Source of the DNA: a virus
Reading direction: 5' to 3' (one strand)
Length of the DNA: 31,469 nucleotides
IMG/VR virus record: IMGVR_UViG_3300001786_000019
Location: 1 to 31,469 of that record
In this document: positions 251 to 31,469 of the stretch, in pieces
Numbering within the stretch: position 1 is the first letter of the stretch
How the letters are laid out: every line of letters begins with the position of its first letter
Program-made: the position numbers and the translations under genes
Notes under the pieces: generated by a model
What the model was told of the DNA's origin: nothing
Databases searched by the model: none
What the model saw: only the letters and a program-made list of their open reading frames with translations

Positions 251-1309
251 TTATTTTTGGCTGAAGTTCTTTAACCATTTAGCCATGTCGTTCTCCACAC
301 TGTTTGCTACGAAATCCAGCGGCGATTCAGGAAGTGGGTCGGAAGGCTCTGGCATAGGAATTTCAGCTTTTGAAAGAGCCTCTCTTTTCATTGCTGTATC
401 TGCACGAGCGTATCGTTCAGTGGTATTTAAATCGGAATGACCCAAAATATCACGTATATAAACGATGTTGTTTCCGGCCTGCAGCATATGCATAGCCTTA
501 CTGTGCCTCAAGGTATGTGGAGAAATTTGTTCAGGAAACAGATAAGGATTATCTTTCTTTCCTTCATTCACGTACTTGTCAAGGATATATTTGACACCGG
601 AACGTGACAGCTTGCCACCGGCCCTATTGGTGAAAACAAACTGCTCTTGAGCATTCCGTAAGTCAATCTTCCCCCGTTTCATGTATTCGTTGAGGTATTT
701 TACTGTTTGCGATAGAAACGGGACAATTCTTGTTTTGTTGCCTTTACCGGTAATCTTAACAATGGGAGGGGCTTCAAAACGAATATCCTTGAATTTTAGG
801 TCTGTTATCTCACTAACTCTGGCTCCGGTATCGTAAGTAAAGGCGAGCAAAGTAAGATCCCGCAGGCCTTCATTCGTGGAAGAGTCAGGCTGCGACAACA
901 GGCATCCCATCGCATCAGTTGAGAGATACGACATGACCGGTTTTGGTGTTTTCTTGAGTTTAACTCCATAAACGTCCTCTGAAAGTTTTAAGAACTGTGG
1001 ATTTTCTGTAGAAAGCCACCTACAGAATGTCCTTAAAACGACAAACCGCTGGTTACGTGAAGTTAATGAGCAACCGCGCTTATCTTCAAGCCACTTAGCG
1101 AACTCCATGAGAAGTTCCTTTGTCAGGAAGGTCATTGGAAGGCGCTCAGGGGTCATTTGCTTTTCTGTTTTCAGAAAAGTGATAAACAGCGAAAAAGTAT
1201 CCCTGTAGGAAAGAATGCTGTTCCTTGAAAGGCCACGCTGACCGGGTAAGTACACCGTAAGATATTTGTTGAGGTATAAGCCAAAGGTTTCTAAGTTAGA
1301 ATTTCGCAT
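251..1309 (-). CDS. Tyrosine recombinase, third gene of the RIT trio
   Basis: A 352-residue site-specific recombinase/integrase. It has an N-terminal SAM-like core-binding domain (roughly 10-110) and a C-terminal catalytic domain. The full catalytic set is visible: Arg in TGARVSEI, Lys in ITGKGNKTRIVPF, HTLRH, the GHSDLNTTERY histidine and the nucleophile Tyr. The start overlaps the end of the preceding gene by 14 bases and has GGAGG about 10 bases upstream, implying coupled translation. By position it would be called RitC, but family subtype was not tested. The three RIT recombinases are thought to act together; the individual role of each is not established. The terminator at 191-223 follows it. 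Confidence 0.9.
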   Translation of the reverse strand: MRNSNLETFGLYLNKYLTVYLPGQRGLSRNSILSYRDTFSLFITFLKTEKQMTPERLPMTFLTKELLMEFAKWLEDKRGCSLTSRNQRFVVLRTFCRWLSTENPQFLKLSEDVYGVKLKKTPKPVMSYLSTDAMGCLLSQPDSSTNEGLRDLTLLAFTYDTGARVSEITDLKFKDIRFEAPPIVKITGKGNKTRIVPFLSQTVKYLNEYMKRGKIDLRNAQEQFVFTNRAGGKLSRSGVKYILDKYVNEGKKDNPYLFPEQISPHTLRHSKAMHMLQAGNNIVYIRDILGHSDLNTTERYARADTAMKREALSKAEIPMPEPSDPLPESPLDFVANSVENDMAKWLKNFSQK

Positions 1310-2288
1310 CGTCTTCTACCTCCGGGAAAACATTTGGAAGATTCATCTGCATCTTGTCTGTAACCGTAGACAGCCTATCCTCGGTGAGCCGTATATACCT
1401 TTCGGTCGACTTAATTCCCGAGTGGCCTAAATACGCAGAAAGAATAGGCAGTGACACATATAAATCATTGCCTGCATCACTCAATCTGTTCATTGTTACA
1501 ACGGCAAAGGTGTGACGGAAATCGTGAACTCTCGGTCCGCGAAGTCTTCCTTCATATGGAATACCGCTTTCCTGTAAAACAAGCCTGAATCTTTTGTAGA
1601 TAGAACAAGATGTCAGCAGTAGACCTTTCCGGTAATAAAAAATCGGCATATCGTCAGTGATTTTATCCATGCAGCCCTCGGCATAATCCTTCAGGACCTT
1701 GGCGATGGAATCGCACATAGGAATAAGGCGCTCCTTGTCAAGCTTCGTGTGTTTTAGCGTTATTACATTGGCATCAAAATCAATGTCTGATGGCGTAATA
1801 GATAACGCTTCAGATATTCTCAATCCACAACTATACAGCAACCTAAACAATACCGGGATACATCTATGAAGATTGGGATACTGTTTTGTTGGCTTGATGT
1901 GATCAACGGTGTTCCAGATTGACTGCAGTTCCGACTCAGTGAATATATGAGGAACAAATGCTGTATTTCTCGAATATCGTACAGATGGGAGCCTCAACTG
2001 GATATATCCGAGGGAAAACATATACTGAGCCCACGCTGTCATGGCGCTTGTGAAGTTTGCCTTTGTTTTCAAACTTCTGTTGTCAGATTCGTCAATCCAA
2101 TTGTATATAGCATCCTCAGGGATGTTGCCATCCGGGCAATGCTCTTTGCAATAACGCATGAAGTAACGAACGGTCCTTTCTTCCGCTGCATATTTAAGTC
2201 CGGTTGACCTCTTGAAATCGATGAAATCCTGCAGTAGGTTTTCAAGTACGTTGATTGATATCGGCATTAATGTTTTTTCATTATTCAT
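1296..2288 (-). CDS. Tyrosine recombinase, second gene of the RIT trio
   Basis: A recombinase of 330 residues when started at MNNEKTLMPIS (2288), preferred over an upstream start because GGAGG lies just before it and the start overlaps the previous stop in ATGAATAA. Catalytic motifs are complete: CGLRISEALS (Arg), LKHTKLDKERLIPM (Lys), HDFRHTFAV (H..R), LGHSGIKSTERY (His and Tyr). The N-terminal part (10-110) resembles a core-binding domain. It sits between the other two recombinases with overlaps on both sides, the standard RIT arrangement, and would be RitB by order. Nothing suggests it is a phage integrase: it is bounded by the element's own ends. Confidence 0.9.
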   Translation of the reverse strand: MNNEKTLMPISINVLENLLQDFIDFKRSTGLKYAAEERTVRYFMRYCKEHCPDGNIPEDAIYNWIDESDNRSLKTKANFTSAMTAWAQYMFSLGYIQLRLPSVRYSRNTAFVPHIFTESELQSIWNTVDHIKPTKQYPNLHRCIPVLFRLLYSCGLRISEALSITPSDIDFDANVITLKHTKLDKERLIPMCDSIAKVLKDYAEGCMDKITDDMPIFYYRKGLLLTSCSIYKRFRLVLQESGIPYEGRLRGPRVHDFRHTFAVVTMNRLSDAGNDLYVSLPILSAYLGHSGIKSTERYIRLTEDRLSTVTDKMQMNLPNVFPEVEDDAKF

Positions 2289-3513
2289 AGTCCGGCACCT
2301 CCAGAGAACAATGACGAAGCTTCTCAATGTCAATACGCAGATAGCTGGAAGCTGAATTCTGGTTCACATGACCAAGGATATTCCCAATCACGTTGACCGG
2401 AGTATCCCTTTCCAACAGTCTACTTGCAAGGCTGTGCCTCAGCGAGTGCAGACCGTGCTGTCTGTTTTCGGGTGCCGTTATGCCGCTGCTCTTATAGTAC
2501 TTGTTGAAGATATGGTACATCATGCTCGTGGAGAGTTTTTGGTAGGGTAGCGTATGCTGTACAAACACTTCCTGGGCAACCGAATTGGGGCGGCCGTTCA
2601 TCCAGTAATCAATAACAGCCTTTCCTATCTGCTCTGTCAAAGGTAGTGTCAGCGGCTCGGAAGTTTTTTGCTGAACCAGGTTTATGCAGCCTTGATTCCA
2701 GATAAAGTTTTCAATCGTCAAACCTGAAATGTCGCCTGTCCGGAGTCCAAGATTGGCGGCAATTGCCATAATAGCGTAGTCGCGTTTACCTGTGGGGTTT
2801 GCACGATCAATTGCATTGAGCATCTGTTCGATCTCTTCTTCGCTCCAAACCTTATCAAGCTTTGCCTTTGCGTAATAACGGACCATTGGTACATATGCCG
2901 AAAGGTCTTCTGAACAAATGCCAGCCTTATAAAAATACCGAAGTGCATGGACAAGCGTAAAACGGACATTTACCAATTGGGCTTTTGAAAAGTGTGCCAG
3001 AGTCCTGAAATATTCATATAAATGAACGGCTTCAAGTTTATCTGGAATAACATATCTGGAATGCAGAAAACAAACAAAATGATATAGATTCAATTCGTGT
3101 TTTCTGCAGGTTTGGTCAGCGTAGCCCAAAGCTTTGCGCTCATCAACAAACCTTACGCTTACATCTTTATATTCAGCCGGCCATTTTACTACTTCACCAC
3201 GTGTATTTCGAGGAATATATCCGTGCAGCTTGAAATCTGTAAGTGCACGGATAGCACGGACCTTCTGATTCATGTAGGGAGACAAAGAAGAATTGTCAAC
3301 TCCATTTTCCCCGAGGGACATGTGGTATTTTTCGAGCATATATTGCTCGGCAAGTTCGGCGCTGTAATGAGTAATGCCCTTACTAAGGGCGAAATTGTAC
3401 ATACTGCGCCACGTACGCACATAGCAAGTCACGGAGGTATAAGTATAGTTATTTGCCTCCATGTGATCCCTTGCCATTTGAATAAGTACTAAGAATTCAA
3501 CATCACTGTTCAT
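2281..3513 (-). CDS. Tyrosine recombinase, first gene of the RIT trio
   Basis: The longest of the trio, 410 residues from the ATG at 3513. That start has GGAGG seven bases upstream, while the longer reading frame from 3585 would read through the promoter region. Residues 1-200 probably carry two helical DNA-contact segments, and the catalytic domain follows: LGLRTGDISGL (Arg), VQQKTSEPLTLPL (Lys), HSLRHSLASRLL, LGHVNQNSASSYLRI (His, Tyr). It is first in the operon and would be RitA by order. The promoter at 3557-3585 and a long dyad overlapping its ribosome binding site (3524-3627) suggest its expression is controlled. Confidence 0.9.
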   Translation of the reverse strand: MNSDVEFLVLIQMARDHMEANNYTYTSVTCYVRTWRSMYNFALSKGITHYSAELAEQYMLEKYHMSLGENGVDNSSLSPYMNQKVRAIRALTDFKLHGYIPRNTRGEVVKWPAEYKDVSVRFVDERKALGYADQTCRKHELNLYHFVCFLHSRYVIPDKLEAVHLYEYFRTLAHFSKAQLVNVRFTLVHALRYFYKAGICSEDLSAYVPMVRYYAKAKLDKVWSEEEIEQMLNAIDRANPTGKRDYAIMAIAANLGLRTGDISGLTIENFIWNQGCINLVQQKTSEPLTLPLTEQIGKAVIDYWMNGRPNSVAQEVFVQHTLPYQKLSTSMMYHIFNKYYKSSGITAPENRQHGLHSLRHSLASRLLERDTPVNVIGNILGHVNQNSASSYLRIDIEKLRHCSLEVPDYE

Positions 3514-3523
3514 GTGATCACCT

Positions 3524-3627
3524 CCACGAACAGTATAATATATTATGTTGAGTAATTTATTACGGAGCAAAAATTGTGCTGTCAAAACCCATTGTTTGTA
3601 AGTGATTATGCGGAAATCTGTTCGTGG
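3524..3627. promoter_or_regulatory. Ten-base dyad bracketing the recombinase promoter
   Basis: CCACGAACAG (3524-3533) and CTGTTCGTGG (3618-3627) are perfect inverted copies about 85 bases apart. They bracket the promoter, and one arm touches the GGAGG of the first recombinase. They could bind a repressor or the recombinases, or pair in a readthrough transcript from the phage to hide the ribosome binding site. The role is inferred. Confidence 0.45.
3557..3585 (-). promoter_or_regulatory. Promoter for the recombinase trio
   Basis: On the minus strand TTGACA (3585-3580), a 17-base spacer and TAATAA (3562-3557) form a good SigA-type promoter ahead of the first recombinase at 3513. It lies inside the element, so the trio does not depend on phage transcription. 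Confidence 0.6.
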
Positions 3628-3636
3628 TGACCGAAC

Positions 3637-3665
3637 TACTCAACATAATCACTTACTTTACATAA
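3637..3665 (-). repeat. RIT inverted repeat, right copy
   Basis: Partner of 162-190 (27 of 29 bases). GTAAGTGATTATG (3598-3610) and its inverted copy (3644-3656) form a 13-base dyad that mirrors the inverted pair at the left end. It directly abuts the AATGC flank at 3666-3670 and supplies the last codons and the stop of the truncated portal ORF. Confidence 0.75.
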
Positions 3666-4864
3666 AATGCTCCAGCATCAGCAAGTTTGGTCATGTTGCC
3701 GTTGATCAGATAGAGATCTCCGCCGAGTTCATCCGGAATCCGATTCAGATTTTCCAGCTCTCTGATATCGTTTGATGACATCCAGCCGTTTTGCCGGCCA
3801 ATCGCATAACCGTTCATTCTGCTTTGATAATCTCCTCGAAGGAGACCGTCTACATTGAACCTGATGAAATAATCCTTCTTCTCAACAGAGGGAAGAAGCG
3901 CCCTTTGCATTGCCTGCTCCCACCTTACAACCCACGGATCGAGCGTATACTTCACAAACTCAAGGCTCTGCTGCTCAATATTAGAGAAGCTGGATTTCTC
4001 AAGATCGCCAATCATGTGCGGCGGTATCCTGAAAATTCTAGCTATCTCTGTAATCTGAAATTTGCGCGTCGCAATGAACTGGGCTTGCTCTGGCGGAATA
4101 CCGATACTTTGAAACTTCATGCCTTCTTCCAAGACTGCTATCCGATGCGCGTTTCCACTACCTTGATAAACCGCGTTCCAGCTGTCCCTTACTCGTTTTG
4201 GGTCCTTGACCACACCGGGATGCTCAAGTACTCCGCCCGGATTTGCGCCGTTTGCGAAAAAAGTGGCCCCATATTCCTCGCAGGCTAGAGCCATACCGAT
4301 AGCATTTTTTGCCATGGCGATGGGAGAGTAACCGACCAGCCCGTCAAAACCAAGCCCTGGAATATGCAAGACATCCTCTTTTCGAAGAATGGCTGAACCG
4401 GTATCCTTTCGGTATTCGTAGTAAAGCTCTCCAGCCTGCGTTCTATCAACCACCATCCTGTCGGGCAGCAGGGGATAGAGTGACAGCACATTTCCCCTGC
4501 CATCGCGAATGATCTGTGCATAGGCGTTTCCCCATAATAAAAGATGACTCATCAGTGTCTCACGAAACACAAATGAAGACATCTCAGGGTTTGGCTCGTC
4601 ATGGAGTAAATGATAGAGGTGGTGATTTGTTGCTTTTTCCTTACCGCGTTCTGTGTGTTTGTAGGTATGAAGCGGCAGGCTCGCTATGGTTTCTGCTAGA
4701 ATCCTAACACAGGCGTAAACCGCTGTGGTCTGCATGGCTGTGCGCTCGTTGACGCTCTTGCCGCTGGATGTTGTGCCGAAGAAGAAGCTGTAAGTAGAGC
4801 CAAACAGGCTGTTTGCAGGTCGGTCTCTGGCTTTAACTAACCAGCGCAAAAAAGGCAGCCTCAT
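3653..4864 (-). CDS. HK97-family portal protein, C-terminus replaced by RIT insertion
   Basis: Portal proteins form the dodecameric ring at one capsid vertex through which DNA is packaged. The 403 residues match the HK97 portal family: an early VNERTAMQTTAVYACVRILAETIASLPL segment, HHLYHLLHDEPNPEMSSFVF, and the conserved FRIPPHMIGDLEKSSFSNIEQQ block. Its start overlaps the DUF3310 gene by ATGA. The last three residues (YVK) and the stop come from the RIT element; about 13 native residues now lie at 56-98. Because the portal tail is often variable the protein may still work, but coupling to the protease gene is lost. Confidence 0.9.
   Translation of the reverse strand: MRLPFLRWLVKARDRPANSLFGSTYSFFFGTTSSGKSVNERTAMQTTAVYACVRILAETIASLPLHTYKHTERGKEKATNHHLYHLLHDEPNPEMSSFVFRETLMSHLLLWGNAYAQIIRDGRGNVLSLYPLLPDRMVVDRTQAGELYYEYRKDTGSAILRKEDVLHIPGLGFDGLVGYSPIAMAKNAIGMALACEEYGATFFANGANPGGVLEHPGVVKDPKRVRDSWNAVYQGSGNAHRIAVLEEGMKFQSIGIPPEQAQFIATRKFQITEIARIFRIPPHMIGDLEKSSFSNIEQQSLEFVKYTLDPWVVRWEQAMQRALLPSVEKKDYFIRFNVDGLLRGDYQSRMNGYAIGRQNGWMSSNDIRELENLNRIPDELGGDLYLINGNMTKLADAGAFYVK
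3666..3670. repeat. Five-base direct repeat (right flank of RIT element)
   Basis: Second AATGC copy, inside the portal coding sequence, matching 99-103. It marks the right insertion junction. Confidence 0.65.
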
Positions 4865-7007: not shown

Positions 7008-7863
7008 CAGCAACCACCTCCGTTTTAGACCGGGCGCCGCTCTTAAAAGCGCTGCTTCCGGAGAGGTTCTTCAATAAAATTTTCCGCGCATCTTTGTATG
7101 CATCGCCCACAAATCCAAGTCGGAGGAGGAAGCATCTCATGGCGTACTTTTCATTCTCTGCTGGCTTTTCCCTGCCGGTTACGCGCTTCTGGATTTTCGC
7201 CGCTGCATAAAGCGCACCGATAAAGCGGGAGTATGCGGCGACTGTTGCGCCGTCTATGCCAAACTTAAACCATGGAAACCTGAGCGTCGTTTCCGTGCGC
7301 TCGATAGGGAGTGCTTCCGCGCCGATAGCTTTCTTGATCAGCGCCGCCTTGCTTGCAATTAGCCGCTCAAGGTTCTCAAGCGCCGCATCGGTAAAGCCTG
7401 CAAGCGGCATCTCGATAGTCAGCGTGTCGCAGTGCTCGTCAGAGTCGACTTCCTCTTCCTCGTCAAAGGCAGAAATATCATCCCCGCCGTACTGCCCGCG
7501 ATTTGAGTAATCGGGGACGTTTGCGTCTTCAAGTTTCATGCGGCGCATTTCGCTTTCTGCCCAAAGCTCGTTTAGCCCTTCAATGGAAGGCTTTGCCACC
7601 ATCCCGCCAAGCCCGCTCTCGTAGGTATCGCGGTTGTCATATTCGCGCTCTGTTGCTTCAAAGCCGTGGAGAGCATGTAGGCCTGCCTCAAGGTCAAGGT
7701 TGTCTGGACCTGTAACCACGCCGTTATTGTCGATGTGGTAGCCGCCTACCTCGTAGGCAAATGTCGGTGCTCCGAGGTATTTGGTCGGGGCGTTTAGTTC
7801 CTGACTGATTGCGCCAACCAGTGACTTGCGCTGTGCCCCTGTTACGTTGTAAGTAATTTTCAT
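7000..7863 (-). CDS. Conserved phage protein (often labelled virulence-related)
   Basis: A 287-residue protein starting at MKITYNVTGAQRK (7863), preferred for the GGAGG upstream. The N-terminus (1-100) reads as a DNA- or protein-binding fold with EVGGYHIDNNGVVTG. An acidic linker (ISAFDEEEEVDSDEH) follows, and then a helical C-terminal domain (TIEMPLAGFTDAALENLERLIASKAALIKKAIG ... LPWFKFG-like segment) that recurs in Firmicutes prophages beside methyltransferase and terminase genes. Databases often carry it as a virulence-related protein, but I know of no demonstrated function. It is coupled to DUF4314 by an eight-base overlap. The family match is from memory of the C-terminal pattern. Confidence 0.7.
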   Translation of the reverse strand: MKITYNVTGAQRKSLVGAISQELNAPTKYLGAPTFAYEVGGYHIDNNGVVTGPDNLDLEAGLHALHGFEATEREYDNRDTYESGLGGMVAKPSIEGLNELWAESEMRRMKLEDANVPDYSNRGQYGGDDISAFDEEEEVDSDEHCDTLTIEMPLAGFTDAALENLERLIASKAALIKKAIGAEALPIERTETTLRFPWFKFGIDGATVAAYSRFIGALYAAAKIQKRVTGREKPAENEKYAMRCFLLRLGFVGDAYKDARKILLKNLSGSSAFKSGARSKTEVVADE

Positions 7864-7882
7864 TGTTTCTGCCTCCGTTTTC

Positions 7883-7914
7883 AAAAATTCCGAAGGCTTT
7901 CAGAGGCCTTCCGG
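7883..7914 (-). terminator. Possible intrinsic terminator after the HNH/AP2 gene
   Basis: On the minus strand CCGGAAGGC pairs with GCCTTCGG (one bulged base) across an eight-base loop and is followed by ATTTTTG. The T-run is short, so it may only partly reduce transcription between the endonuclease gene and the next gene. Confidence 0.4.
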
Positions 7915-7975
7915 TGATTACATATATCACTCAGGAGGGCTACAATAGCAAGACATATATGTGCTAAATGTCTAT

Positions 7976-8587
7976 TCATCTTGAATCCTCCATTTTAAAA
8001 GAAAAAACGCCCGTTACCGGACGCCAGTTTCGACGGACAACCATGTTCATGCACCGTTCATAAACCATCATCTTTACATTTTGTGAAGGTTCCGGCACAT
8101 TCTCGTTTAATCTGGCAAATTCTCCAAACATAAGTTGAGCGGCATAATTGTATGCCATAGCGCCTTCTCGCTCTGTTAGGAAAACGCCAAGATGTATTGC
8201 TTTATCGTTATACTTAATTCTCGTCTCCCAAACGTTCTTTCCCTTACGTCGCAAAACGCCTTTGTACTTTGATGTACACAATACGTTAGGTTTGCCTCGA
8301 TTGAACGCGTTTGTCTGAGTGGTCGCTATGCGAAGGTTGGCACGACGATTGTCTAAACCGTTACCGTTTATGTGGTCTGTTTCCAGATCATCATCAACCT
8401 CAAGAATTTGGCGATGCATCGAGATCGTGTGTCGTGGTTTTCCACGCTGTCGGGGCAAGCTGCGAATAGCATATCCCCCGGACTGATAATTGTTGGGCTG
8501 AAATGCCCAGTTAAATTCGCTTAAAATCTCAAAATCCTCATCGTCCACTATCACGCATTTTCCCCGCGTCAGTTGGATGGTTTTAAT
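7976..8587 (-). CDS. HNH/AP2 free-standing homing-type endonuclease
   Basis: An HNH nuclease domain (HRQILEVDDDLETDHINGNGLDNRRANLRIAT) is followed by an AP2-type DNA-binding domain (SKYKGVLRRKGKNVWETRIKYNDKAIHLGVFLTEREGAMAYN...GEFARLN), the usual make-up of phage homing endonucleases. The canonical GTG at 8554 gives 192 residues. However, the in-frame upstream peptide KTIQLTRGKCVIVDDEDFE matches the normal N-terminus of the family, and an ATT codon at 8587 lies eight bases after GGAGGTG, so I extend to an ATT start (203 residues). It overlaps the 3' end of the methyltransferase gene and looks like an intruder in the packaging module. Confidence 0.85.
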   Translation of the reverse strand: MKTIQLTRGKCVIVDDEDFEILSEFNWAFQPNNYQSGGYAIRSLPRQRGKPRHTISMHRQILEVDDDLETDHINGNGLDNRRANLRIATTQTNAFNRGKPNVLCTSKYKGVLRRKGKNVWETRIKYNDKAIHLGVFLTEREGAMAYNYAAQLMFGEFARLNENVPEPSQNVKMMVYERCMNMVVRRNWRPVTGVFSFKMEDSR

Positions 8588-9813
8588 ATTGAGCGCACCT
8601 CCTCGAATGTCAGTCTCTTTCCTTTGCGCTCGAATGTAATTGCCTGATCAGGAAAACTTTCGTGAAATCGTTTGATACTGGCGCTTGCGTATTTCGTGTC
8701 AATTTCCATTGCGTAGCAGATACGATTGGATTGCTCGCAAGCCATCCCGGTTGAAAAACTCCCTGAAAACAGATCGAGCACGATGTTGTTTGCAGTGCTG
8801 CTGTTTTTGATTGGATACGCTAGCAGCGGAACAGGCTTCATTGTACAATGGATATCATTCTTGGCAGACTTGTCAAAATTCCAAATTGTAGTCTGTTTCC
8901 TATCGGAGTACCACTTGTGTTTGCCCTTTACTTTCCATCCAAAGAGGCAGGGTTCATGGCGCCATTGGTACGGTGAACGGCCGAGCACCAGGCTCGGCTT
9001 GACCCAAACGCACGTACCGGACAATTTGAATCCAGCCTCGCGGAACGCCCGTCGGAAGATTTCCCCCTCGGTATCTGCGTGAAATACATAAGCGCTGCCC
9101 TCGTTGTCAAGCGCTGCCTCGGCAGTTGTAAACGCAGCAAGCAGAAATTGATATAATGCTTCACCTCGCAGGTCATCGTTAGCGATTTTCCCCGCCTTGC
9201 CTTCGTATGAAACCCCATATGGCGGATCGGTTAGCAGTAGGTTCGCCCTCTTACCATCCATCAACCGAGAAACGTCTTCTGCCTTCGTTGCGTCTCCTAT
9301 GAGTATCCGATGCTGTCCGAGCGTCCAAAGATCCCCTGTTAAAGCAAACGGCGGCTCGCTTATCGCCTTGTCCACGTCGAAGTCATCGTCCTTAACGTCC
9401 TCAAGGCCGCCCATCAACTTGTTCAGTTCCGCATCGTCAAAGCCAAGGAGTGTGATATCAAAGTCCGAACCCCGCAAGTCAGCTATCTCAATTGCAAGTA
9501 GCTCATCATCCCAGCCTGCGTTTAGCGCAAGGCGGTTGTCGGCAATGATGTAAGCACGTTTCTGAGCTTCGGTCAGATGCTCGACCACAATACAGTTTAG
9601 TTCGGTTAACCCTTCCGCACGCGCCGCAACAAGTCGCCCATGGCCTACAAGCAGATTGTATTTCTCATCAACAACCAGAGGTGCGACCACACCGAATTCT
9701 CGAAAGCTGGCACGAATCTGAGCTATTTGCTCTTTGCTGTGCGTTCTGGCATTTCGAGCAGACGGTACAATTTTATCAATTTTTACTATTTCAGATCGCT
9801 TGGCGAGTATCAT
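8569..9813 (-). CDS. ParB-like/DNA methyltransferase fusion
   Basis: A 414-residue fusion. Residues 1-110 form a ParB/Srx-like nuclease domain (KIVPSARNARTHSKEQIAQIRASFREFG, VGHGRLVAARAEG). Residues about 160-400 form an N4/N6 DNA amino-methyltransferase, with catalytic LLTDPPYGV ahead of the SAM-binding DLFSGSFSTGMACE, i.e. beta-class order. This two-domain protein is widespread in Firmicutes prophages near the terminase genes, where it probably modifies phage DNA against host restriction; the target site cannot be read from the sequence. The start has GGAGG five bases upstream and overlaps the small terminase gene by ATGA. Confidence 0.9.
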   Translation of the reverse strand: MILAKRSEIVKIDKIVPSARNARTHSKEQIAQIRASFREFGVVAPLVVDEKYNLLVGHGRLVAARAEGLTELNCIVVEHLTEAQKRAYIIADNRLALNAGWDDELLAIEIADLRGSDFDITLLGFDDAELNKLMGGLEDVKDDDFDVDKAISEPPFALTGDLWTLGQHRILIGDATKAEDVSRLMDGKRANLLLTDPPYGVSYEGKAGKIANDDLRGEALYQFLLAAFTTAEAALDNEGSAYVFHADTEGEIFRRAFREAGFKLSGTCVWVKPSLVLGRSPYQWRHEPCLFGWKVKGKHKWYSDRKQTTIWNFDKSAKNDIHCTMKPVPLLAYPIKNSSTANNIVLDLFSGSFSTGMACEQSNRICYAMEIDTKYASASIKRFHESFPDQAITFERKGKRLTFEEVRSILKPSN

Positions 9814-23988: not shown

Positions 23989-24108
23989 TCAACTAATACC
24001 AGTATGCTGTGGCAAGATGAGCGAAAACGCAAACTTACTGCATTTCCCGTGCTCTAAAAATTTCTTAAGCAGACGTTCAGTCAACCCGCGATAAGTGTCA
24101 ATATTCAT
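23989..24108 (-). CDS. Small ORF coupled to abiEii
   Basis: A 39-residue frame (MNIDTYRGLTERLLKKFLEHGKC...LPQHTGIS) whose ATG overlaps the abiEii stop by ATGA and follows AAGGG. It looks like the beginning of a third operon gene cut short. There is no recognisable domain. The rest of the interval from 23768 holds the terminator and nothing else I can support. Confidence 0.35.
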   Translation of the reverse strand: MNIDTYRGLTERLLKKFLEHGKCSKFAFSLILPQHTGIS

Positions 24109-24941
24109 CCCTTATCTACCTTCCCGGCCAGGTCCTTCAACGCATTGCCAACAATCTCCCAAGTGATATCGGCGGCGTAGCTGTATTTTTTCTGATACCG
24201 CTGCCACAGGCTGGCCATGACGGTGCTGGTGGTAACGGTCTGGACAACCTCGTCCAGGGCTGCCATTTGTTTTACGGTATTCCGTTTTTCGACCGTCTTT
24301 TTCAACGCCGTACGGAAAATGGATTCTTCAAAAACCTGGGTGGTGGTCAGGACATAAATATCGTAGAAGTTCCTTATGCGGGTGTTAGCGGTACCTCGCG
24401 TGATGACGGTTTCAAACTTCTCAGCCAGCACAGTTTCCAGATTGTATGCCATAATACTGATCGTCCTGTCCTCGAACATTAGCTTAAAGCTGTACTCGAT
24501 CTCCCTCGGCGTGATGAAATCCCCGGTTGTGATGTCTATTTTCAGCGTTTGGCGCGTCTTGTCCAGGACAGCTTCAATGGATACCCGGTATCCGGGGCAA
24601 TCCGCTTCCTCACGGATTTCCTCAATACCCCACAGCGTGAAGGTAACGCTGTCATCAACGCCAACTTTCAGAATATCTTGCACAATATCGGCAACCTCAG
24701 GTTCAGTCAATACTTGGCCTTTAATAGTGGCATCCAAATCCATCGTAGTGCGGCTGTCGATGCCGACCATTGCCGCAATCAGCATACCACCTTTGAGAAT
24801 GAAACTATTCTTGTACTTTGACACGGCCACTCTCTCCAAAAGCCGCTCCAACATGAAGTTACGCAGGATGACTTCTGCTTCCACGTTTTTCAGTTTAGAC
24901 AGATTGCGTACCAGCGCCTTTAACTGGTTCGATGTTTTCAT
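24105..24941 (-). CDS. abiEii: AbiEii/AbiGii nucleotidyltransferase toxin
   Basis: A 278-residue toxin of the AbiE type IV toxin-antitoxin family, which limits phage spread by abortive infection. Family motifs of the DUF1814 nucleotidyltransferase are present: NSFILKGGMLIAAMVG (nucleotide-binding GG), TTMDLDATIKG (metal-binding DxD), LKIDITTGD, and the C-terminal LAEKFETVITRGTANTRIRNFYDIYVL. It overlaps the antitoxin gene by ATGA and has GGAGG seven bases upstream. AbiEii enzymes transfer nucleotides from GTP or similar donors to targets, reported to include tRNA for relatives. It appears intact. Confidence 0.9.
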   Translation of the reverse strand: MKTSNQLKALVRNLSKLKNVEAEVILRNFMLERLLERVAVSKYKNSFILKGGMLIAAMVGIDSRTTMDLDATIKGQVLTEPEVADIVQDILKVGVDDSVTFTLWGIEEIREEADCPGYRVSIEAVLDKTRQTLKIDITTGDFITPREIEYSFKLMFEDRTISIMAYNLETVLAEKFETVITRGTANTRIRNFYDIYVLTTTQVFEESIFRTALKKTVEKRNTVKQMAALDEVVQTVTTSTVMASLWQRYQKKYSYAADITWEIVGNALKDLAGKVDKG

Positions 24942-25531
24942 AGAAGTACCTCCAGATAACTTCGGAGCGGTTTTGTAATGCGGAAGGTTTCCGCCATCTG
25001 CATCAACACGTTCAGGTTCTTATCGTTTCTCCTTGCGTAGCGTTTCATCGCATCGGTAACAACGGCAATGTCCATCTGGTTCCGGCTGCGGATGCTGTCA
25101 CAGATTGTCCGCTCCAAACCGTACGCGGTCACCGTATGTCCGAACATCGTTTCCATCTGAACCGTACCCAGTTCGTGGAGTTCACGTTTGACAGTGAAAA
25201 CGGTAAACCCCTCCTCCCGCAGCTTTTTGGCATTATATCCTGTCGGCACAGTCACGGTATAATTGATTGGATCGCGGTCGGTGAGATCATGAAGGAACAA
25301 CGCCGTTTCATGGGAGTAAATCAGCTTTGGCCGCCTAAGCTGGGCGATATACATCTTGTCAGGAATGTCCTCGGGTGAAATGTATACACCATGTCCTGCC
25401 CGTTCCAGATTGCCGGAACCCACAAGCAGACGCAGCCGCTCATTTGAAAAACCAGCGTCGTTTGCCTGTGCGGTTGTTACGGTACCACCGTTTTGATGCA
25501 ATAGGGTTTGCAATTCACTTGGCAGTGGCAT
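24938..25531 (-). CDS. abiEi: AbiEi-type antitoxin
   Basis: A 197-residue antitoxin and repressor. The N-terminal winged HTH reads GGTVTTAQANDAGFSNERLRLLVGSGNLERAGHGVYISPED, and the rest is the AbiEi domain (HETALFLHDLTDRDPINYTVTVPTGYNAKKLREEGFTVFTVKRE, TVTAYGLERTICDSIRSRNQMDIAVVTDAMKRYARRNDKNLNVLM). In type IV systems the antitoxin does not bind its toxin directly and represses the operon by binding inverted repeats. GGGGG lies eight bases before the ATG. Position next to a prophage suggests superinfection exclusion or stabilisation of the locus. Confidence 0.9.
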   Translation of the reverse strand: MPLPSELQTLLHQNGGTVTTAQANDAGFSNERLRLLVGSGNLERAGHGVYISPEDIPDKMYIAQLRRPKLIYSHETALFLHDLTDRDPINYTVTVPTGYNAKKLREEGFTVFTVKRELHELGTVQMETMFGHTVTAYGLERTICDSIRSRNQMDIAVVTDAMKRYARRNDKNLNVLMQMAETFRITKPLRSYLEVLL

Positions 25532-28357: not shown

Positions 28358-28380
28358 AAAAAAACCTTGTCTGACAAGGT
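28358..28380 (-). terminator. Intrinsic terminator at the transposon's left edge
   Basis: On the minus strand ACCTTGT-CAG-ACAAGGT followed by seven Ts. The last base of the stem (28380) is the first base of the transposon, so the terminator is mostly flanking DNA that stops transcripts leaving the ATPase gene. Confidence 0.65.
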
Positions 28381-28435
28381 GTTACTGCTAACGCATAATG
28401 TCCAGAACTTGACGTAGTTATTTGTCCCGAAATTG
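28380..28435. repeat. Transposon left end with two binding-site repeats
   Basis: TGTTACTGCT end followed by TGTCCAGAACTTG (28399-28411) and TGTCCCGAAATTG (28423-28435), exactly 24 bases apart. Spacing and position match the right end. Confidence 0.65.
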
Positions 28436-28466
28436 CTTGATTACCTGTCAGGGGAAAAAGGGAGAA

Positions 28467-29267
28467 TTAAAGCAACTCTCCCTGAATCACCAGCTTAATC
28501 ATATGGTCGTCAATGATCCGCCGTCCATTTTGTGCGCCATAAATCATACACTGGGTACATACTTTGTTGACCAGTCGAGCTGACCCACCAGAAAAGCGGA
28601 ACACCTCATCGATTGCACTATCGGAGAAAATATCCTGGGTTGCACCACCGTAATCTAAGTGACGCTTCATGTACTCACCAACCTGAGCACGATCCAGGTG
28701 CGTCAGTTTACACTGCAGATCAATCCGTTGCCGTATGGCGGCGTATGACTGCAGTTGGAACTTATCTCGCAGCTCACTTTGGCCTACGAGGATCAGAGTC
28801 ATGGGGCTTTGCGCATCCATCTTAAAGTTAAGGAGAAACCGAACTTCCTCTAGCATCTCGCGGTCGAGAAGGTGCGCTTCATCCACGATCACGACGGGTT
28901 GTAGTTTGTGGATTCCTCGCATCAGTTCGATTTCCCGGTGCAGTTGGCGCTTCGCATCGCCACGATAGAATTTAGACTCACAGCCTAACTGTTCTAGTAG
29001 CCCTTTGTAAAAATGCCTTGGTGTTAGCTTGGAGTCTGCCAGATACATCACTGTGAATTTAGCAGGATCCAAGGTGTCTCTAAAGCGACGAATTGTAGTG
29101 GTTTTACCCGTACCACAATCACCGGTGACCACGGCAAATAACTGGCGCTGCGCTGCGTACTCCAATCGTCCAATCGTCTCTTCAAGCATGATGGATGGGT
29201 AAAGTTCATGGGTCGGAATCCCTCTGGAAAACGGTGTTTGAGCTAAGCCATAAAAAGCCTCAAACAT
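28467..29267 (-). CDS. ExeA/TniB-like AAA+ ATPase of the transposon
   Basis: A 266-residue AAA ATPase starting at MFEAFYGLAQTPFSRGIPT (29267), which overlaps the transposase stop by eight bases; relatives start at this residue. Walker A is VVTGDCGTGKTTTIRRF (about 48-60) and Walker B is PVVIVDEAHLLD (about 125), with a sensor LILVGQSEL and an arginine in IRQRI. It belongs to the MuB/TnsC/TniB-like helpers that select target DNA and activate the transposase. Translational coupling to the transposase supports that. Confidence 0.9.
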   Translation of the reverse strand: MFEAFYGLAQTPFSRGIPTHELYPSIMLEETIGRLEYAAQRQLFAVVTGDCGTGKTTTIRRFRDTLDPAKFTVMYLADSKLTPRHFYKGLLEQLGCESKFYRGDAKRQLHREIELMRGIHKLQPVVIVDEAHLLDREMLEEVRFLLNFKMDAQSPMTLILVGQSELRDKFQLQSYAAIRQRIDLQCKLTHLDRAQVGEYMKRHLDYGGATQDIFSDSAIDEVFRFSGGSARLVNKVCTQCMIYGAQNGRRIIDDHMIKLVIQGELL

Positions 29268-30615
29268 GGTTTTCACCATCCTTCTTTACCGTCCGATAAG
29301 ATATGGCAGGAGCTTGATCGATTTTCCGTTGTTCATTTTTCTTTGCAGCTGCGACCAGGAGCCTTGAACTCTGGGCCGGTTGTGGTTGTAGCTGCGGGGG
29401 TAGTGCGGGACGAGGACCGCTTTTTTCACCTATGACTAACCGTTTGGCTGTCCAGGATGGATGACCATCGTATTCAATAGTTAACTGGCTAATGTCAACC
29501 GGATCATAGACAACGTCAACTTTACATCCGATAAAGGAAAGACCCACTTCATACTTTTCACCCTGAAAACTGATACAGCCGACTTTATCGACTTTGCGCT
29601 CCTCAGAGTGCAAGAAAGCGTTCGCAATCGTTTGTGGATCGAGAAACTTTAAAGCCTTCTTGTCACTACGATAAGCCGTCGCTGGGCTCAGTTTTTGCTC
29701 TAATGCACTATGGGTCTTGTTCTGGTAACATTCCTCGAGCCAGACCCAAAACAAGTGATTGAGCTTATCTAATGTTTGCGGCTTCTCTAAGGCCACTTCA
29801 CTTAGAAACGAATCAACGACTCGATTAAAACGCTCGACCTTTCCGGTCGATTCTGGCGAGTAGGGTTTGGCAAACAGCAACCGGATGCCCATTTTAGAAC
29901 AGGCTCGGTTCATCCATTTGGTTTTGTACTGGCTACCGTTGTCAAAAAACACGGAATCAGGTACGCCGTACTTTTGAACGGCCTGGCGAAAACAGTCTTC
30001 GACAATTACTTGATCGAGTATGGGGTAGAACTCCCCGTGAAGAAGGAAACGTGTTGCGTCATCTAAAAATGTCACTAGGAAAACCTGTTTCTTCGCTCCA
30101 TCTTTACCGATGGGCAAGTAGGGTCCGTATTTGATATCCGAATGCCATAGTCGGTTACGGTACTTTTGTTGAAAGCGTCTGGCCGCTGTTCCTGATGCGG
30201 CATACATCTGCATGTGACGGGTACTGTAGCCACGCTGTGTTAGTTTATCCTGGAGTGTGCTCCGCTTAATCTGTCCGGGTTGCGTTAATCCTTCCCATTC
30301 GAGGATTTGGATGATTTGGGCCACACTGCGCCCAGGCACTTCACGACGTAACAAGATCGCTTGTTCCAGAATGTGAAGGGGGATGGTTTCCTCTGTCTGT
30401 GGCCGGCCTTTCCCTTTAGGCTTTAGACCACCAAACCCTTCCGCTTGGTACCTAGCCACGTACCTACGCAAGGTGCGCTCGGATAAACCTGTTTGTGCGC
30501 AGATTTGAGCCTTGAGTTGCGTCACCTTTGCAGAATCGAGACCTTCTACCAACAACGGTGACAGAAGCTGCATACGATCGGCCGCAATGGATTCAGCTTT
30601 CTTTTGATCTCTCAT
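29260..30615 (-). CDS. DDE (rve-type) transposase of the transposon
   Basis: A 451-residue transposase with N-terminal helix-turn-helix segments (CAQTGLSERTLRRYVARYQAEGFGGLKPK; RSVAQIIQILEWEG; RSTLQDKLTQRG), an RNase H-fold core and a Mu-like barrel. The catalytic residues are D in WHSDIKYGPYL (about 157), D in VFFDNGSQYK (about 223) and E in SPESTGKVERFNR (about 258). Start 30615 is seven bases after GGAGG; the ATG two codons earlier is too close. The C-terminus is Pro/Gln/Lys-rich (PQLQPQPAQSSRLL), a likely ATPase contact tail. Intact. Confidence 0.95.
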   Translation of the reverse strand: MRDQKKAESIAADRMQLLSPLLVEGLDSAKVTQLKAQICAQTGLSERTLRRYVARYQAEGFGGLKPKGKGRPQTEETIPLHILEQAILLRREVPGRSVAQIIQILEWEGLTQPGQIKRSTLQDKLTQRGYSTRHMQMYAASGTAARRFQQKYRNRLWHSDIKYGPYLPIGKDGAKKQVFLVTFLDDATRFLLHGEFYPILDQVIVEDCFRQAVQKYGVPDSVFFDNGSQYKTKWMNRACSKMGIRLLFAKPYSPESTGKVERFNRVVDSFLSEVALEKPQTLDKLNHLFWVWLEECYQNKTHSALEQKLSPATAYRSDKKALKFLDPQTIANAFLHSEERKVDKVGCISFQGEKYEVGLSFIGCKVDVVYDPVDISQLTIEYDGHPSWTAKRLVIGEKSGPRPALPPQLQPQPAQSSRLLVAAAKKNEQRKIDQAPAISYRTVKKDGENHV

Positions 30616-30661
30616 GTTCATTCCTCCTAAAATCAGGTTTCAACATGAGTTTACCGCTTCT

Positions 30662-31195
30662 CTATTCGGACAGGAATGCAGAACGGGTCTGTACCCAATA
30701 ATTTGCATTCACGATGGGTCGGACAGTTCTAGCAAGCCAGCGGGGAGCATCCCCTACATGCTGCCAAATCCGTTGGAGCGACGACTGGGGAGGGTTGGAT
30801 CTTCCTTCCGCAGATTCTGCGCCAAAACATAGAACAATGGAGACAAGAGCACCTGCGAAGCAATTGGATACCTCCAAAAACCACCGCTTCCATCGACGTA
30901 TGGTGGATTCATCGGCCGCCACAGTTAACGTATCTTCTTCGCCTATAACTGCTTCAATACTTTCGCTCCCGTAACGCTTGTAGGGAACTAAGATATCCGG
31001 AAGTTCATGATGCACTCTTTTACAAAGTGAGCAACGAAGCCTGCGAATCATCAGAGCTACGTTGTCTCCAATCCCATTGATGTACTTTCTCACCCGGTTC
31101 CCGATAACTTGAAGTACGCTACCGCAACAGGGACAAGAGTTCTGCTCACCGCTCCTTACAAAAAACACCCGTTTCGGGGTTTTCAACCAGCTCAA
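30662..31195 (-). CDS. DUF6431 zinc-ribbon protein of the transposon
   Basis: A 177-residue protein, first gene of the transposon. A zinc ribbon is formed by CPCCGSVLQVIG and RLRCSLCKRVHHELPDILVPYKRYGSESIE, matching DUF6431. An HTH-like stretch follows (ADESTIRRWKRWFLEVS) and then a basic tail. The TTG start at 31195 has no convincing ribosome binding site, so the true start may be the ATT just before or translation may be restrained. Zinc ribbon plus HTH suggests a DNA-binding targeting or regulatory subunit, but this has not been shown. Confidence 0.75.
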   Translation of the reverse strand: MSWLKTPKRVFFVRSGEQNSCPCCGSVLQVIGNRVRKYINGIGDNVALMIRRLRCSLCKRVHHELPDILVPYKRYGSESIEAVIGEEDTLTVAADESTIRRWKRWFLEVSNCFAGALVSIVLCFGAESAEGRSNPPQSSLQRIWQHVGDAPRWLARTVRPIVNANYWVQTRSAFLSE

Positions 31196-31205
31196 AATCT
31201 GTTAG

Positions 31206-31304
31206 AATGACCATAGGTTGAGTTGGGCGCCCCTAGTGCTACTGTTGTAGGCAGTAGTGCATTTTACGGGGGCGTCTTTCCTTTCTCTTAACTCTATGGT
31301 CATT
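31206..31304. repeat. Nested inverted repeats in the transposon leader
   Basis: AATGACCATAG (31206-31216) and CTATGGTCATT (31294-31304) are perfect inverted copies. Inside them CGCCCC (31228-31233) pairs with GGGGCG (31269-31274), and CTACTG pairs with CAGTAG nearer the centre. The outer arm overlaps the -10 box, so it is likely a DNA operator. The inner stems would be in the mRNA leader of the DUF6431 gene. Confidence 0.55.
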
Positions 31305-31330
31305 ATATCGAGCAACTTCCGGTCAGGCAA
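31302..31330 (-). promoter_or_regulatory. Transposon promoter containing an end repeat
   Basis: On the minus strand TTGCCT (31330-31325), 17 bases, TATAAT (31307-31302), about 105 bases before DUF6431. The spacer is the inner right-end repeat (GACCGGAAG...), so transposase bound to the end would shut off its own promoter. Confidence 0.6.
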
Positions 31331-31368
31331 TACCGTTAGCTTTCGGTCCTTTTAGTTCAGCGTAAACA
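31313..31368. repeat. Transposon right end with two binding-site repeats
   Basis: On the minus strand TGTTTACGCT is followed by GACCGAAAG and GACCGGAAG, 21 and 45 bases in, the same register as the left end. The terminal TG is at 31368 and abuts the interrupted istA codons. Confidence 0.65.
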
Positions 31369-31370
31369 CT

Positions 31371-31436
31371 TGAGGCTATGCTGCGTTGGCTGATCCCCTG
31401 ATGGAAAAGCCGAAGAATTTCCCGGTAGTTAGTCAT
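31371..31436 (-). pseudogene. istA N-terminal fragment of a second IS21-type element
   Basis: An ATG with AAAGGAG upstream opens MTNYREILRLFHQGISQRSIAS, closely matching the first residues of the complete IstA in this window (MTKYREILRLSSMGLSQRSIASS). After 22 codons it runs into the transposon end and then a stop. The remainder of this istA is not on the other side of the transposon, so the insertion was accompanied or followed by loss of DNA. Confidence 0.75.
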
Positions 31437-31469
31437 ACAATGGTCTCCTTTAGAACGTATTTACACTGC

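Follow-up and report, generated by a model that had tools for sequence, protein, structure and literature searches.

A widespread bacterial three-gene transposon with base-exact ends and a putative +1 ribosomal slip at the start of its DUF6431 gene

The window analyzed here, i.e., the complete 31469 bases of the virus record IMGVR_UViG_3300001786_000019, harbors at positions 28380-31368 (minus strand) a 2989-bp transposon of the form TGTT...AACA, which encodes an IS481-like DDE transposase, a MuB/TniB-like ATPase and the zinc-ribbon protein DUF6431. The copies found elsewhere show the element to be a genuine three-gene transposon of bacteria that is widespread, hardly described so far, and exactly delimited at both ends. 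In the reading preferred here, to which a probability of roughly 0.72 is assigned, its promoter would be covered by its own transposase, full-length DUF6431 would be made by a +1 slip of the ribosome, and in some lineages the leader of the transcript would act as a lock. A review on frameshifting stated in 2016 that no insertion sequence (IS) with +1 ribosomal frameshifting had been identified (PMC5009743), and later papers in the open-access literature report +1 transcriptional slippage instead. The open-access literature searched indicates that a +1 slip, as proposed here for the first gene, is not recorded for elements of this kind. It is reasonably likely that these are the first bacterial insertion elements, found across Clostridia, Paenibacillaceae and Bacillaceae, in which prfB-like +1 ribosomal frameshifting sets the level of a transposition regulator, combined with a promoter in transposase-type repeats and a leader lock. 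Since a single slip site is represented by dozens of naturally occurring versions (+1, -1, in frame), the rules of slip direction and efficiency are directly testable, and exact ends are now available for studying an almost undescribed transposase-ATPase system.

Ends, Target Duplications and Copies

The left end begins with TGTT at 28380, and the AACA at the right end is the same TGTT read inward from 31368. The window being a separate virus record, copies were sought elsewhere, yielding 2 in viral contigs and 70 in genomes. A perfect target duplication of 5-8 bp is present in 21 of the 33 copies that have both flanks; it measures 6 bp in 15 cases, 7 bp in four, and 8 bp and 5 bp in one each. 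No clear target-site consensus was found in the 15 six-bp duplications. The genome of Syntrophomonas DTU019 UFZ-1H11 contains five copies that are identical or near-identical up to both ends, TGTT to AACA, with a length of 3005 bp, or of 5463 bp in the two copies enlarged by an IS21 element; each has its own perfect 6-bp duplication (CTTTCC, GTATAC, CCTAAA, AATAAA, and CCTTGC). Several contigs (L047, L050, L053, and L059) contain nothing but the complete element, as is seen with collapsed multicopy repeats. Related copies thus end at the same bases, and the original prediction of a transposon with base-exact ends at 28380-31368 is borne out; the check that it proposed on other copies found both the common TGTT ends and a repeat step of 24.

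No target duplication surrounds the window copy, whose left flank (ACAAGG) does not match the right one (CTTGAG). Its right end is placed to within one base by the istA gene that the transposon interrupts, as had been predicted, whereas its left end, in the absence of a duplication, is fixed there through homology to other copies. The mismatched flanks imply rearranged surroundings or a wrongly joined contig: recombination between copies, an adjacent deletion, or misjoining through a repeat are possible causes. IS21 sequences flank the window copy on both sides, and comparing the outer end of the neighboring IS21 with viral relatives did not settle the cause. One and the same IS21 lies inside the left end of the copies L022 and L067 (about 7184-9640), each of which has its own perfect 6-bp duplication; the element has therefore probably moved with a left end of only about 76 bp.

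The DUF6431 Start Lies Out of Frame

A conserved ATG (31214 in the window) between the promoter and the DUF6431 domain opens a peptide of the form MVIVSxYELIExPxxGVF, which is mostly not in the frame of DUF6431. In the window, this zero-frame start of the gene (MVILTDFELVENPETGVF, 31161-31214, minus strand) ends at the putative slip codon TTT (31163-31161); base 31160 would have to be skipped to continue into the DUF6431 frame (30662-31159, minus strand, +1 frame; Pfam PF20020, 1.4e-29), giving a fusion product of 183 amino acids (P0001). Among 97 distinct copies, comprising a first set and independent genome draws, a +1 change is needed in 66 and a -1 change in 11, while 11 are in frame and 9 have no usable start. 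The independent draws alone contributed 20 +1, 2 -1 and 3 in-frame copies, counting distinct new copies with a recognizable start.

The putative slip site is conserved in the +1 copies. The last zero-frame codon is TTT or TTC in 66 of 66 and is followed by NGT, TAT or similar; the overlapping codon of the DUF6431 frame varies (Phe, Leu, Ser). The T-run is 4 bases long in 8 copies, 5 in 16 and 6 in 42. Pairing with the anti-Shine-Dalgarno sequence reaches a mean of -3.55 kcal/mol for 8-mers ending 1 nucleotide before the slip codon, compared to -0.7 to -1.4 further upstream, although this Shine-Dalgarno-like stretch is an average signal that is not present in every +1 copy. In 19 of the 66, neither ATG, GTG nor TTG occurs upstream of the slip in the DUF6431 frame.

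Substitution patterns suggest that both parts are translated. In the zero-frame piece, 50 of 128 single-change codons are synonymous versus 22.7% expected (p 2.4e-5; 30 disjoint sister pairs), while the other two frames over the same piece give 0.269 versus 0.194 and 0.096 versus 0.198. In the domain frame of DUF6431, 76% are synonymous versus 24% expected, and this selection argues that the copies are not pseudogenes. Moreover, the out-of-frame arrangement belongs to the mobile element, since the five near-identical Syntrophomonas copies with perfect duplications all need the +1 change. In-frame relatives (L110, L023, L005, L109, and L118) have a similar N-terminus, and L110 is the nearest relative of the window DUF6431. 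An AlphaFold model of the fusion P0001 puts the junction within a beta strand (residues 16-21). The start of DUF6431 is probably mis-annotated in these elements.

The proposed mechanism resembles that of prfB, the gene for bacterial release factor 2, which likewise has a short zero-frame start, a pyrimidine-rich slip codon, an upstream Shine-Dalgarno-like stimulator and its main gene in the +1 frame, but does not sit in a mobile element. Translation would begin at the ATG at 31214 and proceed for 18 codons in the zero frame. At GUU UUU, the Shine-Dalgarno-like stretch directly upstream would help a share of the ribosomes to skip one base (+1). Those that skip would make full DUF6431, as in release factor 2, and the others would stop shortly after.

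A clade of six members (L030, L031, L033, L034, L035, and L023) uses -1 with the sequence GTT TTT ATG TAA; its member L023 is in frame, which makes the clade a natural switch series.

End Repeats, Promoter and Leader

The right end (31302-31368, minus strand) carries behind its terminal TGTT two repeats starting at 31348 (offset 21) and 31324 (offset 45), followed by a third GACC at 31301 (offset 68). The left end (28380-28454, plus strand) has the same terminal TGTT, repeats starting at 28400 and 28424, and a degenerate one at 28447. When 48 right and 35 left ends were compared, GNCC was found to start at offsets 21, 45 and 68, end self-similarity peaked at a step of 24, and right and left ends matched only in register (0.545 versus at most 0.275 when slid). 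The two repeats per end predicted at offsets 21 and 45 are therefore real; the third at 68 had been missed, as had the out-of-frame DUF6431 start, the leader hairpin and the lack of a duplication at the window copy.

The promoter (31302-31330, minus strand) overlaps the inner right repeat, in agreement with the original prediction: a -35 box TTGCCT (31330-31325; offsets 39-44) is separated by 17 bases from a -10 box TATAAT (31307-31302; offsets 62-67), and other right ends show conservation at these positions. Neither box is conserved in the left ends, though these have the same repeats, and the promoter is thus separable from the binding-type repeats. This contrast is better evidence than the conservation of the -10 box, which is partly built in, because the right ends were collected with a pattern requiring a TATAAT-like box; a loosened search retrieved only few degenerate -10 boxes (L005, L017, L036, and L039). 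We infer that the transposase binds the end repeats. It would then cover its own promoter, and autoregulation through binding at the promoter repeat is plausible.

Downstream of the promoter, the leader (31226-31285, minus strand) consists of a Shine-Dalgarno-like stretch, GAAAGGAAA (31285-31277), and a hairpin (31276-31226), which would place the hairpin between the ribosome-binding site and the ATG. A long stem between the GAAAGGAAA-like stretch and the ATG is predicted in 59 of 59 distinct leaders, built from 37 different 5' arms (median z -3.6). In addition, an outer inverted repeat (31203-31307, minus strand) joins the -10 region to the start codon by pairing 31294-31307 with 31203-31216, and might serve as a read-through lock; pairing of these two regions below -8 kcal/mol is found in 34 of the 59 leaders. 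All leader folds were computed on single sequences. RNAalifold on a MAFFT alignment of the 59 leaders gave no consensus fold, as the leaders are too diverged to align, and no Rfam match was found in 30600-31469. In lineages with the outer repeat, transcripts entering from outside would bury the ATG in a fold-back structure; those initiated at the element's own promoter would begin too late to form it and would leave the ATG exposed. IS10 and IS50 are protected against read-through in this way: an inverted repeat spans both the promoter start and the start codon and hides the latter only in outside transcripts. The present element differs in that the outer repeat occurs only in part of the family, that a second, inner hairpin is universal, and that protection would apply not to the transposase but to the leading gene of a set of three.

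Alternative Explanations for the Frame Change

Several observations weigh against ribosomal slippage with a leader lock as the explanation. A second Shine-Dalgarno-like peak lies just downstream of the slip. In prfB, the stop follows directly behind the slip codon, whereas here no stop does so; instead, a zero-frame stop stands two codons past the slip in 44 of the 66 +1 copies and is not there in the rest. The window copy has a possible TTG start in the DUF6431 frame at 31195. A -1 change is needed in 11 distinct copies and arose several times on the tree, and the copies are related, hence not independent events. The confidence of the fusion model is only moderate (predicted local distance difference test score, pLDDT, 76), and Bacillaceae copies show a weak fold-back lock or none.

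The occurrence of +1 and -1 versions within one family could alternatively point to slippage of RNA polymerase on the T-run, i.e., the programmed transcriptional realignment known from several IS families, and one survey interprets mixed directions as a mark of such slippage (PMC3711429). In IS1447, an IS3-family element of Firmicutes with +1 transcriptional slippage, seven identical bases were sufficient and were reported as required (PMC6211511). The T-runs of all 66 +1 copies are short by this standard, with 4-6 bases and in 24 copies at most 5, and polymerase slippage gives no role to a Shine-Dalgarno-like stretch at a fixed place by the slip codon. Transcriptional slippage is therefore considered unlikely, and the ribosome is favored over the polymerase as the source of the frame change by roughly 4 to 1. 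The stop two codons past the slip, the AGGAG that lies downstream of it in many copies, and the tolerance of both +1 and -1 would also suit a zero-frame open reading frame that merely encodes a leader peptide, with DUF6431 re-initiated separately at a non-standard start codon. However, six copies (L058, L059, L062, L071, L066, and L143) lack both a zero-frame stop nearby and any ATG, GTG or TTG ahead of the slip in the DUF6431 frame. In addition, the zero-frame peptide is similar to the N-terminus that other DUF6431 proteins carry in frame, and it folds into strands in the model. These points make re-initiation rather improbable.

It is more improbable still that DUF6431 simply starts at a TTG or GTG of its own frame and that the upstream ATG is irrelevant. 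RefSeq annotates an internal DUF6431 start on two plasmids, and the TTG of the window copy would fit, but the 19 +1 copies without such a codon ahead of the slip and the coding constraint on the zero frame speak against it. Decay of the +1 copies, of which a frame break is the usual sign, can hardly be credited: although L045, L070 and L071 are also broken in the transposase, both frames are under strong constraint, the slip site is kept in 66 distinct copies, and fresh near-identical insertions are of the +1 type.

Gene Content and Relation to Known Elements

The family consists of mobile three-gene transposons of Bacillota, as far as sequence comparison can tell, and the trio between the ends is constant except in truncated copies. 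The DDE transposase (29260-30621, minus strand) is nearest to the IS481 profile and has a Mu-type C-terminal domain. It is followed by an AAA+ ATPase of the AAA_22/TniB/ExeA-like type (28467-29279, minus strand), whose gene overlaps that of the transposase by 20 bp. The ATPase matches the Pfam families AAA_22 (2.1e-25) and TniB (6.6e-6), and MuB is its only sequence match in the PDB.

The transposase scores 180 bits against the NCBIfam IS481 model, the best of all IS models, but does not reach the cut-off of 224 bits; the match of the IS21 profile is weak (47 bits). The element shares with the IS481 family this best profile match, TGT...ACA ends and short target duplications, and differs by the missed cut-off, two further genes, three repeats per end and a length of about 3 kb. 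By its transposase it is thus a relative of IS481, not a member by the cut-off. With Tn5053/Tn402 (TniA-TniB-TniQ), Tn7 (TnsB-TnsC) and Mu (A-B) it has in common a DDE transposase with a Mu-type C-terminal domain, an AAA+ partner and repeat arrays at both ends. However, these systems produce a 5-bp duplication, while here it is mostly 6 bp (15 of 21), and among the three genes inside the element no TnsA, TniQ/TnsD target selector, resolvase or phage gene was found. Membership in a Tn7/Mu-type family, as proposed in the original prediction, is not supported, and a Tn7, Mu or Tn5053 element is excluded by duplication length and gene content. IS21 (IstA-IstB) also combines a transposase with an ATPase, but differs from the element in gene content and ends.

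DUF6431 accompanies the transposase in all but truncated copies, which answers the earlier question of whether it is always present, and the description of the system as poorly described is apt: only one paper in the open-access literature searched mentions DUF6431. The protein has no sequence match to the TniQ/TnsD, TnsA or resolvase families of Pfam, no NCBIfam model matches it, and a PDB fold search with its model gave nothing below E 0.001. The likeness of the model to the NrdR zinc ribbon, the best match on a second look (Z 4.8 over 45 residues), was rejected as too weak. Among sampled genomes, DUF6431 was present in 95 of 398 from the phylum of G001 and in 31 of 198 from the order of G002, but in none of 14 controls; these counts take in more distant subfamilies as well. 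Because of its zinc ribbon and its position in the operon, DUF6431 is most likely a DNA-binding regulator or a transposition helper, the level of which would be low and controlled.

Two variations in gene content were observed. The in-frame lineage of L036 (about 3640-4417), and similarly L005, has lost the -10 box, and its right end and DUF6431 are separated by an additional open frame of ~258 codons; the first 83 amino acids of this frame have no Pfam match, and it is a candidate passenger gene. Some copies have a fourth, small gene behind the ATPase, which belongs to the DUF5348 family (L051, about 7130-7380; L164, 4655-4891).

Surroundings of the Window Copy

On the right, the transposon cuts the start of a second, different istA (31369-31437), the remainder of which is not on the other side. 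On the left, a perfect palindrome by an A run (28365-28379, CCTTGTC-T-GACAAGG), terminator-like on the minus strand, abuts the end of the element. Further away, an AbiEi/AbiEii-type toxin-antitoxin pair (24105-25531) lies between phage genes and the IS21 element. Next to phage portal and terminase genes, the region 251-3585 encodes tyrosine recombinases of 352, 345 and 434 amino acids (Phage_integrase matches), arranged in tandem with overlapping ends in the manner of a recombinase-in-trio element.

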